This document shows positions 30,551 through 37,290 of a stretch of DNA of 64,000 nt, piece by piece (position 1 is the stretch's first letter; each line of letters begins with the position of its first letter). Under the pieces are notes generated by a model. That model saw nothing but the letters and a program-made list of their open reading frames with translations, was not told the DNA's origin and did not search any database. The DNA lies in contig CP131056.1 in NCBI GenBank assembly GCA_030657355.1, forward strand, positions 3,926,501 to 3,990,500. Direction: 5' to 3'. Both the position numbers and the translations under genes were made by a program. The stretch comes from Radicibacter daui (GTDB lineage: Bacteria > Pseudomonadota > Alphaproteobacteria > Radicibacterales > Radicibacteraceae).

Positions 30551-30605
30551 TCCGGCCAGCATCCCGCGCTGCATTGCTGCCGCAGCTTCCTCCTGCTACA
30601 TTGAC

Positions 30606-30622
30606 CCTACCATTTCGGTAGG
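30606..30622. promoter_or_regulatory. Rrf2-type operator, copy 1 (autoregulation)
   Basis: CCTACCATTTCGGTAGG is an inverted repeat with six-base arms and a five-base centre, placed directly after a TTGACC -35-like element at 30601. The same arrangement recurs upstream of the sulfate importer at 31185. It lies 27 bases before the Rrf2 start codon. Confidence 0.7.
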
Positions 30623-30648: not shown

Positions 30649-31113
30649 GTGATCACGCAAAAAGCCAGATATGCCTTCCGCGCCCTCTTCGCCCTCGCCG
30701 AAGCCGGGGCGGACGAGACGCTGTTCATCTCCGACATCGCGGAATCGCGGCGGATCCCGCGCAAGTTCCTCGAGCAGATCCTGCTCGATCTCAAGCATCA
30801 CGGCGTGGTTGCCAGCCGGCGCGGCAAAAATGGCGGGTATGCGCTGCTGCTGGCGCCGGCCGAGATTACCTTCGGCCGGGTCTTGCGCATTTTCGACGGC
30901 CCCCTCGCCCCGCTGCCCTGCCTCAGCCGCATGGCCTATCGCCGCTGCGAGGATTGCGACGATGAAGAAAGCTGCTCCATGCGGCGGGTTTTTTCCGTCG
31001 CCTACCAGCGCAGTGTCGATGTTCTGGACAGCACCACCCTTGCCGATGCCATGGCATCGGGAAGTCTGCCGTTTGACAATGATGACGGCGAACCGACCCA
31101 ACTCACCGCCTAA
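30649..31113 (+). CDS. Rrf2 family regulator of sulfate/cysteine supply (probable)
   Basis: A 154-residue Rrf2 protein starting at a GTG. The winged helix is at the N-terminus (MITQKARYAFRALFALAEA, ISDIAESRRIPRKFLEQILLDLKHHGVVASRRGKNGGYALL). A later segment, LPCLSRMAYRRCEDCDDEESC, holds four cysteines spaced C-x8-C-x2-C-x5-C, which could bind an iron-sulfur cluster. An almost identical palindrome stands before this gene and before the sulfate importer leader, so it probably represses both in response to cysteine, O-acetylserine or redox state. The signal is inferred. Confidence 0.9.
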   Translation: MITQKARYAFRALFALAEAGADETLFISDIAESRRIPRKFLEQILLDLKHHGVVASRRGKNGGYALLLAPAEITFGRVLRIFDGPLAPLPCLSRMAYRRCEDCDDEESCSMRRVFSVAYQRSVDVLDSTTLADAMASGSLPFDNDDGEPTQLTA

Positions 31114-31184
31114 CCGGCTGATTTTGCATTAAAATTAAATTCTCTCATTTCACGTGTTTCTTTTGTCTTTTAACTCCATTGACT

Positions 31185-31199
31185 CTACCTTTTTAGTAG
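31185..31199. promoter_or_regulatory. Rrf2-type operator, copy 2, in the sulfate importer promoter
   Basis: CTACCTTTTTAGTAG matches the core CTACC-N5-RGTAG of the copy at 30606 and again follows a TTGAC element (TTGACT, 31179-31184), with TTAGCG at 31202 in the place of a -10. The operator thus fills the promoter spacer, a repressor position. The stretch 31114-31490 has no long gene; it holds this promoter, the leader peptide and the attenuator-like hairpin. Confidence 0.68.
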
Positions 31200-31240
31200 T
31201 GTTAGCGTTTTTCTCGTCCAAGATGAGGAGGACTGAAAGC

Positions 31241-31327
31241 ATGACTGACCGCTTCAGGCTCTTTTGCCCGCCCCGCACCGTAACGGCGGCCTGCATCGCT
31301 CCCTGCGGCACCTGCCGCTGCTGCTGA
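31241..31327 (+). CDS. Cysteine-rich leader peptide upstream of the sulfate importer
   Basis: A 28-codon reading frame from ATG 31241 to TGA 31325-31327, with an excellent ribosome site GAGGAGG at 31225-31231. Six of 28 residues are cysteine (positions 9, 18, 22, 25, 27, 28), ending in CGTCRCC right at the stop codon. A GC-rich hairpin with T-run begins 9 bases after the stop. Runs of codons for the pathway end product just before a terminator are the hallmark of ribosome-mediated attenuation, as in trp and his leaders, and short cysteine-rich leaders precede sulfur genes in other bacteria. Low charged cysteinyl-tRNA would stall ribosomes here and favour sulfate uptake. The frame is too short for standard gene finders. 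Confidence 0.75.
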   Translation: MTDRFRLFCPPRTVTAACIAPCGTCRCC

Positions 31328-31335
31328 GGCAGCCC

Positions 31336-31372
31336 GCCCCGGCCTCCGTCCCGGAGGGCCGGGGCCCCTTTT
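31336..31372 (+). terminator. Attenuator-like terminator behind the cysteine-rich leader
   Basis: A 13-base-pair stem with one bulged G (GCCCCGGCCTCCG, 31336-31348, pairing with 31352-31365) around a TCC loop, then CCCTTTTCC. It lies between the leader stop codon and the sulfate-binding protein gene, so conditional termination is likely. A competing CTGCC/GGCAG pairing overlaps the last cysteine codons and the stop. Confidence 0.68.
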
Positions 31373-31490
31373 CCGATCCCGACTGAACCGGCCAATCCTG
31401 AAGCCGGCAGTGTGCCCAGATTTCACATGCACATTTGCGTGTTGATTGATTTTGAACGGCTAAAATCCGTTAAATAGGTGGAGCCTGAAG

Positions 31491-32585
31491 ATGCACAGTT
31501 ACCCCTATTCCCGTGCCGCGACGCCGGCCGCTCTGGCCGAGGATGGCCGGCAGCGCCGCGCTTCCCTGCTGCGCCTTGCCTTTGTCGCGCTGGTCGCCGC
31601 CGCGACGATTGCCGCAACCGGCCTTGCCGCCCGCAGCGCCCGCGCCGATCAGACGCTGCTCAACGTTTCCTACGATCCGACGCGCGAGCTCTACCAGGCC
31701 TATAACGAGCTGTTCGCCAGACACTGGAAAGAAGTGAAGGGCGAAGATGTGACCCTCCAGGCTTCCCATGGCGGCTCCGGCGCCCAGGCGCGCTCCGTCA
31801 TCGACGGGCTGGAGGCGGATGTGGTGACGCTGGCGCTGGCCGCCGACATCACCGCGATTGCCGACAAGACCGGCAAGCTGCCGGCGGACTGGCAGGCCCG
31901 CCTGCCCCACAACAGCTCGCCCTACACCTCCACCATCGTGTTCCTCGTGCGCAAGGGTAACCCCAAGGGCGTCAAGGACTGGGGCGATCTGGTAAAGCCG
32001 GGCGTCGAGGTCATCACCCCGAACCCGAAGACCTCCGGCGGTGCCCGCTGGAACTATCTGGCTGCCTGGGCCTGGGCGGAGGACCAGTACAAAGGCGATG
32101 ACGCAAAGGTCCGCGACTATATCAAGACGCTGCTGACCCATGTTCCGGTGCTGGATAGCGGCGCGCGCGGCGCCACCACCACCTTCGTCCAGCGCGGCCT
32201 CGGCGATGTGCTGCTGGCGTGGGAGAACGAAGCTTTCCTGGCCATCAACGAGCTTGGTCCCGACCAGTTCGAGATCGTGGTGCCCTCGATCAGCATCCTT
32301 GCCGAACCGCCGGTCGCCGTGGTGGACGCCAACGCCAAGGCGCATGGCACCGAGGAACTGGCCAAGACCTATCTCGACTATCTCTATTCGCCCGAAGCCC
32401 AGAAGCTGATCGCAAAGAACTACTACCGCCCCGTAGACCCCGCCGCTGCCGATCCGGAAGACCTGAAGCGCTTCCCGGCACTGAAGCTGGTGACCATCGA
32501 CAAGGATTTTGGCGGCTGGGTGAAGGCGCAGAAGGAGCATTTCGCCGACGGAGGCAGCTTTGACCAGCTCTACCAGCCGAAATGA
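31491..32585 (+). CDS. cysP: Sulfate/thiosulfate ABC transporter substrate-binding protein
   Basis: A 364-residue CysP/Sbp-type periplasmic protein. A long positively charged N-terminus precedes the signal peptide ([27 protein letters not shown]), with cleavage near residue 52. The mature start [25 protein letters not shown] and the anion-binding sequence [30 protein letters not shown] are diagnostic. CysP and Sbp cannot be separated on sequence alone. It is the first gene of the importer and lies 119 bases after the attenuator hairpin. Confidence 0.94.
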
Positions 32586-32595
32586 GCCGGTCTTG

Positions 32596-33459
32596 ATGAC
32601 AGATACGACATTTGAAGCCGCACAAAAGCGGGGGCGCCACCGGCGTCCCCGTAATGTGCTTCCCGGGTTCGGCCCGGCACTGGGTTTTACCACCGCCTAT
32701 CTCAGCCTCATCGTGCTCATCCCGCTGGCCGTGCTGTTCGGCTGGAGCCTGTCGGGCGGGGTTGCCGCGTTCATCGAGCTTGCCACGCGCGAGCGCACAC
32801 TGGCGGCACTGCGCCTCAGCTTTGGCGGTGCGGCGATTGCGGCCGGCATCAACATGGTCTTCGGTCTGCTGGTGGCCTGGGTGCTGAGCCGATACAGCTT
32901 TCCCGGCCGCAAGCTCATCGACGCGATGGTGGATCTGCCCTTTGCCTTGCCCACCGCCGTCGCCGGTATCTCACTGGCAACGCTCTACGGCCCCAAGGGC
33001 TGGATCGGCGGTTTTCTGGCGGATTACGGGATCAAGGTCGCTTTCACCCCGCTCGGGGTCATCGTTGCGCTTACCTTCGTCGGCCTGCCCTTCGTCGTGC
33101 GCACCGTGCAGCCGGTGCTGGAGGATCTCGACCGGCAATATGAGGAAGCCGCCGCCACGCTCGGCGCCGGCCGGTTGCAGACAGTGCGGCATGTGCTGCT
33201 GCCCGCGCTTTTCCCCAGCCTGCTCACCGGCTTTGCCATGGCCCTTGCCCGTGGCATCGGCGAATACGGCTCGGTGATCTTCATCGCCGGCAACCTGCCG
33301 ATGCGCTCCGAGATCGCGCCGCTGCTCATCGTCATCAAGCTCGAGGAGTTCGACTATCGCGGCGCCACCGTGGTGGCGGCAACGATGCTCATCCTCTCCT
33401 TCCTCATGCTGCTGGCAGTCAATCTGCTGCAGGCATGGACCCGCCGGCACAGCGCCTGA
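32596..33459 (+). CDS. cysT: Sulfate ABC transporter permease CysT
   Basis: A 287-residue permease from the ATG at 32596, 10 bases after cysP. It has six TM helices, with PGFGPALGFTTAYLSLIVLIPLAVLF near the start, LPTAVAGISLATLYGPKGWIG and the EAA loop DRQYEEAAATLGAGRLQTVRHVLLPAL. ARGIGEYGSVIFIAGNLP is typical of CysT/CysU. It forms the sulfate channel with CysW. An upstream in-frame start inside cysP is less likely. Confidence 0.94.
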   Translation: MTDTTFEAAQKRGRHRRPRNVLPGFGPALGFTTAYLSLIVLIPLAVLFGWSLSGGVAAFIELATRERTLAALRLSFGGAAIAAGINMVFGLLVAWVLSRYSFPGRKLIDAMVDLPFALPTAVAGISLATLYGPKGWIGGFLADYGIKVAFTPLGVIVALTFVGLPFVVRTVQPVLEDLDRQYEEAAATLGAGRLQTVRHVLLPALFPSLLTGFAMALARGIGEYGSVIFIAGNLPMRSEIAPLLIVIKLEEFDYRGATVVAATMLILSFLMLLAVNLLQAWTRRHSA

Positions 33460-33467
33460 GGCTCCCC

Positions 33468-34382
33468 ATGATCGATACCCTCGCCCACGCTTCCCTTCCG
33501 CCGCCGCCAAAACCCCACGAGCTTGCCACCGCTCGCGCTGTCACCCGCGCCGCCACCGGCGAGGCCCCGGCCATCCGGCTGCTGCTCATCGCTGCCGCCA
33601 TTCTTTTCCTCACCCTCTTTCTCTTTGCCCCGCTGGCGCTCGTCTTCACCGAAGCGCTGCGGCAAGGCGTAGTGAAGTTCATCGGCGCCCTGACGCAGAA
33701 GGAGGCGCTGGCCGCCATCCGGCTGACGCTGATTACCGCCGGCATCTCGGTGCCGCTGAACCTTGCCTTCGGCCTTGCCGCGGCCTGGGCCATCGCGCGG
33801 TTCCGCTTCCCCGGTAAAAGCCTGCTGCTCACCCTCATCGACCTGCCCTTTTCCGTCTCACCGGTCATTTCCGGGCTCGTCTTCGTGCTTATCTTTGGCG
33901 CGCAGTCGCTGATCGGGCCCTGGCTTTCCGCCCATGGCATCAAGATCGTATTTGCCCTGCCGGGCATCGTGCTGGCGACGATCTTCGTGACCCTGCCCTT
34001 CGTGGCGCGCGAGCTTATTCCGCTGATGCAGGAACAGGGCGCCGACCAGGAAGAGGCCGCCCTCTCCCTCGGGGCCAGCGGCTGGCAGACCTTCTGGCAT
34101 GTCACCCTGCCCAATGTGCGCTGGGGGGTGCTTTACGGCGTGCTGCTCTGCAATGCCAGGGCGATGGGCGAATTCGGTGCCGTGTCGGTGATTTCCGGCC
34201 ATGTGCGGGGGCTGACCAACACCATCCCGCTGCATGTGGAAGTGCTCTACAACGAGTACGCCTTCTCCGCCGCCTTCGCGATGGCCTCGCTGCTGGCGCT
34301 GCTCGCGCTCGTCACCCTCGCGCTCAAGACCTTTCTGGAATGGCGCTTTGCCGGTGAGCTCGCCAATGGCCTGCGCCATTAG
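33468..34382 (+). CDS. cysW: Sulfate ABC transporter permease CysW
   Basis: A 304-residue permease beginning 8 bases after cysT. After a hydrophilic, proline-rich N-terminus come six TM helices. ITAGISVPLNLAFGLAAAWAIARF, DLPFSVSPVISGLVFVLIFG, the EAA loop DQEEAALSLGASGWQTFWHVTLPN and RAMGEFGAVSVISGHVRG identify CysW. The start codon at 33468 was chosen because it avoids overlap with cysT. Confidence 0.94.
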   Translation: MIDTLAHASLPPPPKPHELATARAVTRAATGEAPAIRLLLIAAAILFLTLFLFAPLALVFTEALRQGVVKFIGALTQKEALAAIRLTLITAGISVPLNLAFGLAAAWAIARFRFPGKSLLLTLIDLPFSVSPVISGLVFVLIFGAQSLIGPWLSAHGIKIVFALPGIVLATIFVTLPFVARELIPLMQEQGADQEEAALSLGASGWQTFWHVTLPNVRWGVLYGVLLCNARAMGEFGAVSVISGHVRGLTNTIPLHVEVLYNEYAFSAAFAMASLLALLALVTLALKTFLEWRFAGELANGLRH

Positions 34383-34427: not shown

Positions 34428-35474
34428 ATGGAAATCAGCATCAAGGGCGTGCGCAAGGAATTTGGCTCTGTGGCGGCCCTGCGCGGCGTCGATCTCGACA
34501 TCGCCTCGGGCGAACTGGTTGCGCTGCTCGGCCCGTCCGGCTCCGGCAAGACGACGCTGCTGCGCCTCATCGCCGGACTGGAATATCCCGAAGGCGGACA
34601 GATCCTGTTCGGCGGAGAGGATGCCTCCCTGCTGCCAGTCAAGAACCGCAATGTCGGCTTCGTCTTCCAGCATTATGCGCTCTTTCGCCATATGACGGTC
34701 GCCGACAACATCTCCTTCGGGCTTCGGGTGCGCTCCGCCCGCCGCCGGCCGGCGCGCGAGGCCATTGACGCACGGGTGCGTGAACTCCTGTCGCTGGTTC
34801 AGCTGCCGGATATCGGCGAGCGCTACCCTCACCAGCTCTCCGGCGGGCAGCGCCAGCGTGTTGCCCTTGCCCGCGCCATGGCCATCGACCCCGCCGTGCT
34901 GCTGCTGGACGAACCCTTCGGTGCGCTCGATGCCCAGGTGCGCAAGGATCTGCGGCGCTGGCTGCGGGAGCTGCATGCCGAAACCCGCCACACCACCGTC
35001 TTCGTGACCCATGACCAGGAAGAAGCGCTGGAGCTTGCCGACCGGGTGGTGGTGATGAACCACGGCGTCATCGAGCAGTCCGGCCGGCCGGAGGAACTTT
35101 ACCGGCATCCCTCCTCCGCCTTCGTCTTCGGTTTCCTCGGCAGCGCCAACATCTTCCCGGCACGGGTCAGCGCCGGGGCGGTGCATCTGGAGGGCATGGA
35201 GCGCCCCTTCGCCCCCGCCCCCGCCGGCCAGCCGGACGGGCGCTATCGCCTCTTCGTGCGCCCGCACGACCTGCGCCCCACTGACCAGCCGGGGCTCGGT
35301 TTTGTCGGCGTAGTGCAGGAGGCGCGGTTTCTGGAAGGCATCCACCGTATCGCGATTGCCATCACCGGTCGCCGCGACCCGGTGGAACTGCACCTGCCGG
35401 CACATGAAACGCCGCCGGCCGCCGGTTCCCGCATCCATCTGGCGAGCGAGCGTTTCGGGCTGTTCGCGGCGTGA
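34428..35474 (+). CDS. cysA: Sulfate/thiosulfate ABC transporter ATP-binding protein CysA
   Basis: A 348-residue ATPase with Walker [11 protein letters not shown]-loop [20 protein letters not shown], signature LSGGQRQRV, Walker [13 protein letters not shown] and H-loop [20 protein letters not shown]. The C-terminal domain is a regulatory TOBE-like region. It completes the sulfate importer. AAGGA lies about 10 bases before the start. Confidence 0.95.
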
Positions 35475-35523: not shown

Positions 35524-37290
35524 ATGACGGTCCAGCAGGGCCTTTTGCTTCTCATCCTTGCCGGCACCCTCGCTGCCTTCATCAGCGAGCGCTGGCGGTA
35601 TGACGTCATCGCCCTTTCCAGCCTGATGCTGTGCGTGGTGACGGGCCTTATCGCCCCCGGCGTGGCGTTCGACGGGCTGTCGAGCCCGGCCGTGCTCACC
35701 GTCATCGGTGTGCTGCTGATGGCACAGGCGGTGACCGTCAGCGGTTATATCGACCGGGCGGCCCGCCAGCTCTCCCGGCACCTGAAACGCGACAGCTCGG
35801 TTCTCGCCGCCCTCTGCCTGACGGGCGCCGCCCTTTCCGCCGTCATGAACAATGTCGGCGCGCTGGCGATCATGATGCCGATCGCGCTCGGCATCTGCCG
35901 GCGGCGGCGCATGGCGCCCGGCCTGGTGCTGATGCCGCTTTCCTTTGCCACGCTGCTCGGCGGCATGGTGACGGCCATCGGCACCCCGCCCAACCTCATC
36001 ATCTCGCAGCTGCGCGAGCGCTGGATGGGGGCGCCGTTCGGCTTTTTTGACTTTACCCGCCTTGGCCTGCCCATCGCCCTTGCCGGTATCGCCTGGCTTG
36101 TACTCGTCGGCTACCGCGTTATCCCGGCCGGAAACCGCAAGCGCAGGGGCGACGACGGCGAGGAGGCGGAAGCCGCCATCGAGGAGGCGCCCGGCGATTT
36201 TCTCATCGAACTGGTGGTGGAGCCGGACGGCCTTTTGGAAGGCATGAGCCTTGCCGCCGCCGAGGCCGATCTCGGCATCCGCCTGCACACGGTGGTGCGC
36301 GGCAGCGTGCGCCTGTTCGGCCGGCGGCAGAACCTGCAGCTCGCCGCCAACGACATTATCGTGGTGGAGGCAAGCCTGCCGGTCATCGAAGGGCTGGTGG
36401 CCCGCGACGGGGTAAGCGTACGCGGCGCCATGCCGGCCGATGGCAGGCTGGTTGCCGCCGTCATTACCCCGTCCAGCATCGCCGTCGGCTCCAACCTGCA
36501 TTCGCTTGATCTGGAAGCGCGCTGGGGGGTAGAGGTGGTGGCCGCCGCCCGGGCGGAACGGCGGGTGGAAGGGCGTCTTGCCGACGCAGCCTTCGGCATT
36601 GGCGACGTGCTGCTGTTTTCTGGCCCCAGCGATGCCATCGCCACGGCGCTGTCGGATCTTTCCTGCCTGCCGGTGGCCGGGCGCGAGCTGCCGATGCGCG
36701 GGCGCCGCTCGCCGCTGCCGCTCTTCGTCTTTGCTGCCGCCATCCTCATCTCGGCCTTCGGCTGGCTGCCGGCACAGGTGAGTTTCATTGGCGCGGCGCT
36801 GCTGCTCGGCATCAGCGGCACCATCTCCCGCCGGGATGTGCTCTCCAACATCAACTGGAGCATCGTCATCATGCTGGCGGCGCTGATCCCGGTGGGTCAG
36901 GCGCTGGAGAGCACGGGTACGGCCCGGCTGCTGGCCCATGGCCTCGCTTCTCTCGCTGCACCCGGCGGGCCGCTTCTGCTACTGGCGCTTACCCTGCTGA
37001 TCACGCTGGTGCTGACGCCGCTGCTCAACAACGCCGCCACCGTGCTGCTCGTCGCCCCCATCGTGGCGGAAGCGGCAACGGGCGCGGGTTACTCGCCGGA
37101 TACCTTCCTGATGGCGGTGGCAATTTCCGCCTCGACGGACTTCCTCACCCCCATCGGCCACCACAACAATGCGCTCATCATGGGGCCAGGGGGTTATCGC
37201 TTCGGTGATTACTGGCGCCCGGGGCTGCCGCTGACGCTGATCGTCTGCGCGCTTGTGTTGTGGCTCGCCCCGCTGTTCTGGCCGTTCTGA
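35524..37290 (+). CDS. SLC13 family anion permease with TrkA-C domains
   Basis: A 588-residue membrane protein with two sets of TM helices around two cytoplasmic TrkA-C-type domains (about residues 215-380; FLIELVVEPDGLLEGMSLAAAEADLGIRL and PSSIAVGSNLHSLDLEARWGVEVVAAAR). The SLC13/DASS motif region is visible as VMNNVGALAIMMPIALG with ATAIGTPPNLIISQ-like AIGTPPNLIISQ, and again as LNNAATVLLVAPIV. It follows cysA by 49 bases, so a sulfate or related anion role is likely. Its end is 11 bases from the convergent glpK. Confidence 0.88.
   Translation: MTVQQGLLLLILAGTLAAFISERWRYDVIALSSLMLCVVTGLIAPGVAFDGLSSPAVLTVIGVLLMAQAVTVSGYIDRAARQLSRHLKRDSSVLAALCLTGAALSAVMNNVGALAIMMPIALGICRRRRMAPGLVLMPLSFATLLGGMVTAIGTPPNLIISQLRERWMGAPFGFFDFTRLGLPIALAGIAWLVLVGYRVIPAGNRKRRGDDGEEAEAAIEEAPGDFLIELVVEPDGLLEGMSLAAAEADLGIRLHTVVRGSVRLFGRRQNLQLAANDIIVVEASLPVIEGLVARDGVSVRGAMPADGRLVAAVITPSSIAVGSNLHSLDLEARWGVEVVAAARAERRVEGRLADAAFGIGDVLLFSGPSDAIATALSDLSCLPVAGRELPMRGRRSPLPLFVFAAAILISAFGWLPAQVSFIGAALLLGISGTISRRDVLSNINWSIVIMLAALIPVGQALESTGTARLLAHGLASLAAPGGPLLLLALTLLITLVLTPLLNNAATVLLVAPIVAEAATGAGYSPDTFLMAVAISASTDFLTPIGHHNNALIMGPGGYRFGDYWRPGLPLTLIVCALVLWLAPLFWPF

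Follow-up and report, generated by a model that had tools for sequence, protein, structure and literature searches.

The window analyzed here, a stretch of DNA of 64 kb, contains a set of genes for sulfate import preceded by the gene of an Rrf2-family regulator and, between the two, by a short open reading frame (ORF) rich in cysteine codons (Table 1). The initial annotation had placed this ORF upstream of sulfate uptake genes, and profile matches identify the latter as specifying a sulfate substrate-binding protein (SBP), the permeases CysT and CysW, and the ATPase CysA. Directly 3′ of the CysA gene lies the gene of a DASS/CitMHS-type anion symporter with TrkA-C domains (35524–37290), which may give the operon a second transporter for sulfate or anions.

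Table 1. Features of the sulfate importer locus and its leader (positions are those of the window).
Feature	Position	Strand	Basis
TTGACC-CTACC-N5-GGTAG, −35-like box overlapping a palindrome before the Rrf2 gene (putative autoregulatory operator)	30601..30621	+	sequence
Gene for a 154-aa transcriptional regulator of the Rrf2 family, immediately upstream	30649..31113	+	Pfam PF02082 1.2e-34; TIGR00738 3.9e-31
TTGACT-CTACC-N5-AGTAG, same arrangement 5′ of the leader ORF (putative promoter of the sulfate operon under Rrf2 control)	31179..31199	+	sequence; promoter activity presumed
Shine-Dalgarno AGGAGG of the leader ORF	31226..31231	+	sequence; 9-nt spacer to ATG 31241
Leader ORF, 28 codons, MTDRFRLFCPPRTVTAACIAPCGTCRCC, six Cys codons	31241..31327	+	sequence, shuffles, genome scan
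Anti-RBS element CUUCAGGCUC in leader codons 4–7, just 5′ of the first Cys codon	31252..31261	+	perfect 10-bp complement of 31481–31490
Small stem GCGGCA-CC-UGCCGC over Cys codon 25	31307..31320	+	MFE
GC-rich hairpin, 13 pairs, one bulge, tail CCCUUUUCC: weak intrinsic terminator or structural hairpin	31336..31365	+	folding
Ribosome-binding region of the SBP gene, AGGUGGAGCCUGAAG; 31481–31490 paired by the anti-RBS	31476..31490	+	sequence, folding
Sulfate ABC transporter substrate-binding protein (sbp/cysP type)	31491..32585	+	NF008022 2.1e-145; TIGR00971 4.3e-140
Sulfate permease CysT	32596..33459	+	TIGR02139 4.5e-118
Sulfate permease CysW	33435..34382	+	TIGR02140 1.2e-119
Sulfate importer ATPase CysA	34428..35474	+	TIGR00968 4.4e-110

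The leader ORF runs from the ATG at 31241 to a TGA at 31325–31327 and specifies the peptide MTDRFRLFCPPRTVTAACIAPCGTCRCC. The description given in the initial annotation, of 28 codons with a consensus ribosome site, six cysteines, and the last three of these within four codons of the stop, is correct in each respect: the site reads AGGAGG, and the Cys codons occupy positions 9 (31265–31267), 18, 22, 25, 27, and 28. Its richness in cysteine is beyond chance. Among dinucleotide shuffles of the 377-nt gap, ORFs led by a Shine-Dalgarno (SD) sequence and possessing at least six Cys codons arose with a frequency of 0.0002, and those with three Cys in the last eight codons with a frequency of 0.001. 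Shuffling of the whole window yielded 0.275 ORFs of the latter kind on both strands together, and none of the former. A scan of both strands of the 64 kb revealed a single SD-led, Cys-tailed short ORF, the one described here; across 916 kb of the same genome there are three, of which it is the richest in Cys, the other two possessing fewer and less regularly placed Cys codons. The ORF, with its strong SD sequence, has the appearance of a translated frame. Neither NCBIfam nor Pfam holds a model matching the peptide; no Rfam family reached its gathering threshold in the window, where the best sub-threshold matches were noise, and BLAST of the leader against plasmids returned short chance matches only.

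The hairpin that follows begins at the ninth base past the leader stop and has, folded alone, an energy of −26.7 kcal/mol. It had been described as terminator-like and as lying 9 bases after the stop; its position and stem are as claimed, and the term terminator-like is generous because the tail is CCCUUUUCC. Our terminator scan, for which at least five T in eight were demanded, did not list it. Hairpins between convergent genes of this genome, on the other hand, often carry only four to five T, and the tail of the leader hairpin is close to that of these usual terminators, so that some premature termination may occur at 31336–31365. This bears on a classical transcription attenuation in the manner of trp and his, in which the hairpin would end transcription under ample cysteine, and stalling of ribosomes at Cys codons would keep it from doing so. 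Besides a stable hairpin directly after the leader ORF and the modest T content of the genome's own terminators, such a scheme has a precedent in uORFC-8-2 upstream of the cysS gene of Rhodobacterales, which combines tandem Cys codons with an intrinsic terminator (PMC8632094). Against it speaks equilibrium folding ahead of a stalled ribosome, in which the hairpin forms with a probability of ~1 whether the stall is placed at codon 9, 18, 22, 25, 27, or 28, and in which no antiterminator exclusive of the hairpin was found for any of these positions. In transcripts ending before the 3′ arm has been made, only weak alternative pairs reach the 5′ arm. The Cys codons of the tail lie so near the hairpin that no antiterminator arm would fit, and a ribosome resting on them would reach no farther than 31336 and leave the stem free. 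With its poor U-tract added, the terminator–antiterminator switch of the initial annotation is thus unsupported, and we consider control by transcription termination rather unlikely.

A different use of the leader is indicated by the complementarity between its codons 4–7 and the start of the first importer gene. The element CUUCAGGCUC (31252–31261) pairs without mismatch with GAGCCUGAAG (31481–31490), the ten bases directly before the AUG of sbp, and ensemble folding of the whole leader gives this pairing a probability of 0.95–1.0 with the 3′-end of the transcript at 31495, 31540, or 31560. A perfect run of 10 bp was obtained with 0.0007 of the shuffled ORFs and 0.003 of the shuffled leaders; when the segment preceding the first Cys codon was itself shuffled, none of 500 sequences paired as well. 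Within a sample of genes from the same genome, a run of at least 10 bp with the upstream 235 nt was present in two of 171. If duplex energy is the only measure, the p value from shuffling is no better than 0.03, and the element was found after looking.

The anti-RBS element ends three bases 5′ of the first Cys codon, and therefore a ribosome waiting at codon 9 would cover it. Masking the corresponding footprint (31248–31278) abolished the pairing in silico and raised the unpaired fraction of 31484–31493 from ~0.12 to 0.5–0.7, part of the freed ribosome-binding site then pairing locally with 31498–31504. A ribosome stalled at the tail cluster alone would leave the element itself uncovered, and stalling there would have to act through ribosomes queued behind it. 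Translational attenuators of the leader-peptide type are recognized by a leader that pairs with the ribosome-binding site of the next gene and by the disruption of this pairing when a ribosome occupies the control codon; in silico, the present leader does the first and responds in the second way. What the complementarity suggests is attenuation at the level of translation, relieved when ribosomes stall at Cys codons; a terminator mechanism is less likely than this one.

That the Cys cluster abuts the stop codon and that 163 nt of untranslated RNA precede sbp would also suit Rho-dependent polarity. Here, release of the ribosome at the stop would expose 31328–31490 to Rho and ribosomes stalled at the Cys tail would shield the RNA, in a manner resembling tnaC; Rho has been proposed to act on actinobacterial cys leaders which lack terminators (PMC1262725). 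The stretch in question is, against this, rich in predicted hairpins, and we regard Rho-dependent control as quite improbable.

At the level of transcription, the locus possesses two copies of an unusual arrangement. In ~0.9 Mb of the genome, a TTGAC box followed immediately by the palindrome CTACC-N5-RGTAG was found at just two places, flanking the Rrf2 gene: one before that gene and the other before the leader. The pattern suggests that the Rrf2 protein represses its own gene as well as the promoter of the sulfate operon. The two near-identical sites are likely operators of this regulator; a consensus promoter scan found no promoter at 31179–31199. The regulator itself matches Rrf2 superfamily models best; IscR and CymR models come next, with scores under their cut-offs. 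It carries a Cys-rich segment, CLSRMAYRRCEDCDDEESC, which is kept in relatives adjoining sulfate-binding genes and is compatible with possible Fe-S or thiol sensing. Could the repressor alone account for regulation, the leader peptide being a chance ORF? Of 110 other loci, 27 have an Rrf2 relative close to the sulfate-binding gene, nearly all of them without a Cys-rich upstream ORF (uORF), and the exclusive placement of the palindromes agrees with such a scheme. It is opposed by the shuffle and genome statistics of the leader ORF, by its strong SD sequence, and by distance: in several Alphaproteobacteria CTA-N8-10-TAG palindromes, the closest comparable operators, lie 25–110 nt 5′ of the gene, whereas here 291 nt separate operator and sbp, the palindrome being 306 nt away, with the leader in between. 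Control by the repressor alone is accordingly very unlikely, slightly more so than the action of Rho.

One question to be answered is whether comparable leaders exist elsewhere. No SD-led ORF with a Cys tail was detected within 1.5 kb at any of ~110 sulfate-binding-protein loci in other genomes. In the same genome as the window, no convincing Cys leader was seen at the cysD/H, sulfite reductase, or Cys/Met PLP enzyme loci, nor at a second sulfate/thiosulfate-binding gene (L002; G000:C1:893011–894015), which has the end of an AraC-like regulator gene upstream. One further locus, L105, has a weakly initiated Cys-rich ORF, MTQSPARNLLRSLCRRDICCRFF, and led to an alphaproteobacterial family, here called f66. 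Its Cys-rich uORFs (loci L156–L162, L174–L176, L178, L180, L217, and L218), of which MTRPTLLLRSTCRCGMCRRT, MPGGRLRHRCCCCA, and MPFPTPTLDRPSRRPRCCCCCRA are examples, are followed by a gene for a small protein of ~65 residues and then by a sulfur gene. This protein (MSEPFIVEIWGEPAGIVLREGNAFRFHA...; L105:1273–1470 and its f66 homologs) has no NCBIfam match at E 1e-10, and it is the product of the first gene of otherwise unrelated operons, concerned with sulfate, sulfonate, MetY, arabinonate dehydratase, and a protein that we take, from a reading of its sequence, to be carboxymuconolactone-decarboxylase-like. It may couple leaders to operons.

A Cys-rich uORF is present at 13 of the 63 f66 loci of the small protein. 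These uORFs precede sulfate SBPs (six), SsuA-like SBPs (two), and MetY (two, with the runs CCCC and CCCCC), as well as one SfnB-like oxidoreductase, one MgtC-like gene, and one permease that we take, from a reading of its sequence, to be TauE/SafE-like. None of the 63 loci has such a uORF before arabinonate/dihydroxy-acid dehydratase or other common neighbors. With sulfur genes defined as those for SBP, SsuA-like, CysH, MetY, and SfnB-like proteins, the uORF is found at 11 of 13 sulfur loci vs. 2 of 50 others (Fisher 9e-9, an optimistic value because the loci share ancestry). These data also bear on the notion that the peptide senses metal or redox state through its thiols and not the supply of cysteine. 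Cysteine-rich peptides in general can bind metal, and the leader peptide contains CGTC and CRCC motifs; the leader nevertheless precedes genes for sulfate uptake rather than metal genes, and in f66 the Cys uORFs track sulfur genes while the sequence outside the Cys codons drifts. Sensing of metal or redox state is, in our opinion, hardly credible, and sensing of cysteine, summed over all leader-based mechanisms, is likely.

The f66 leaders resemble that of the sulfate importer in pairing as well. Their pre-Cys segments pair with their own ribosome-binding sites better than with swapped ones (permutation p 0.011 without the window, 0.004 with it). The mean pairing of the ribosome-binding site to the pre-Cys segment is at least 0.5 in nine of 14 leaders, that in the window being 0.73 and that at six control loci 0.00; five of the 14 leaders lack the pairing. 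The swap permutation was used in place of a consensus structure since the spacing varies, for which reason a MAFFT/RNAalifold consensus of the f66 leaders revealed no covarying helix. Similar GCGGCAYGUGCCGC stems occur in f66 leaders, and the stem in the window is not a significant match to the covariance model, R1, built on that family: the match in the leader (9.0 bits, E 1.1, 31304–31327) was the third of eight in the window. Under stricter filters R1 had no match in the same genome, and among 385 alphaproteobacterial genomes strong matches were confined to f66. Weaker matches at L283, L288, and L292 were rejected, as they lie out of frame inside coding genes. The leader of the window and those of f66 hence have an architecture in common, and homology between them is not supported by R1. 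We tentatively propose, with a confidence somewhat short of even, that both belong to a class, recurrent in Alphaproteobacteria, of translational attenuators which are gated by cysteine and carry an anti-Shine-Dalgarno segment within the leader ORF, just 5′ of the first Cys codon; the sulfate operon described here and the f66 leaders (sulfate, sulfonate, MetY, SfnB-like) would be independent or very diverged examples.

From the observed ORF, its enrichment in Cys, its complementarity to the start of sbp, and the predicted equilibrium stability of that pairing we infer translation of the ORF, stalling within it, and the direction of control. The leader is, by an estimate slightly above even, a leader-peptide attenuator through which the sulfate importer operon responds to cysteine, acting most likely at the initiation of translation of the first gene. 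Transcription would start at the Rrf2-controlled promoter. With charged tRNA-Cys plentiful, ribosomes would run through the leader ORF, and codons 4–7 would then pair with 31481–31490 and block the ribosome site of sbp. When cysteine is scarce, ribosomes would stop at Cys codon 9 or queue behind the Cys cluster 22–28; those stopped or queued would cover the anti-RBS and the importer would be translated. The GC-rich hairpin may contribute premature termination, or serve as a spacer. More sulfate importer is thus probably made when cysteine is short. Of the cysteine attenuation that had been surmised for this locus, a Cys-rich leader beyond chance and its parallels in f66 support the principle; the trp-type mechanism is not supported.

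The kind of regulation is already established. Leader peptides rich in Cys are best known from Actinobacteria, and the literature searched yielded one for Alphaproteobacteria, that of cysS in Rhodobacterales; none was found there before an alphaproteobacterial sulfate importer, which does not prove absence. The present locus adds a sulfate importer leader, with a concrete RNA switch of somewhat unusual layout, and points to a family, f66, in which Cys-rich leaders recur across sulfur operons. Short ORFs with Cys codons could flag genes for sulfur limitation.

The f66 leaders are like that of the window in that a short ORF has its Cys codons toward the end and contains a small GCGGCANNUGCCGC stem, the segment before these codons is complementary to the ribosome site downstream, and a GC hairpin separates ORF and gene. 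They differ in the ~65-residue protein interposed before the sulfur gene, in a weak SD sequence, and in the distance from uORF to the next start codon (60–93 nt vs. 163 nt). The logic proposed for the sulfate importer is that of ermC and ermB, where the RNA of the leader ORF keeps the following gene's ribosome site hidden as long as no ribosome has stalled within that ORF; stalling is there brought about by antibiotic and nascent peptide, whereas here it would result from a lack of Cys-tRNA.

For actinobacterial cys operons, leader ORFs with Cys tails and without terminators have been predicted (Seliverstov 2005, PMC1262725). Mycobacterial leaders were subsequently tested by Canestrari 2020, a study which PMC9094748 and PMC13236596 cite and describe in terms of cysteine-responsive attenuation and, in M. 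smegmatis, attenuation of translation. These polycysteine leaders share with the window a short ORF with Cys codons clustered toward its 3′-end, a position before sulfur or cysteine operons and, as described, cysteine-responsive attenuation without an obvious terminator. The mycobacterial ORFs are leaderless, whereas that of the window has an AGGAGG site; the organisms belong to different phyla and no sequence relation has been shown. Within the Alphaproteobacteria, uORFC-8-2 upstream of cysS is known from 145 examples in Rhodobacterales, with tandem Cys codons 14–15, a clear run of U, and an intrinsic terminator, and ribosome-mediated attenuation has been proposed for it (PMC8632094). It too is a uORF with Cys codons followed by a hairpin, and it controls cysteinyl-tRNA synthetase, while the leader described here adjoins a sulfate importer. 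Judged by the description in that paper, the latter is set apart by its dispersed Cys codons, its poor U-tract, and the pairing of its anti-RBS element with the ribosome site of sbp.
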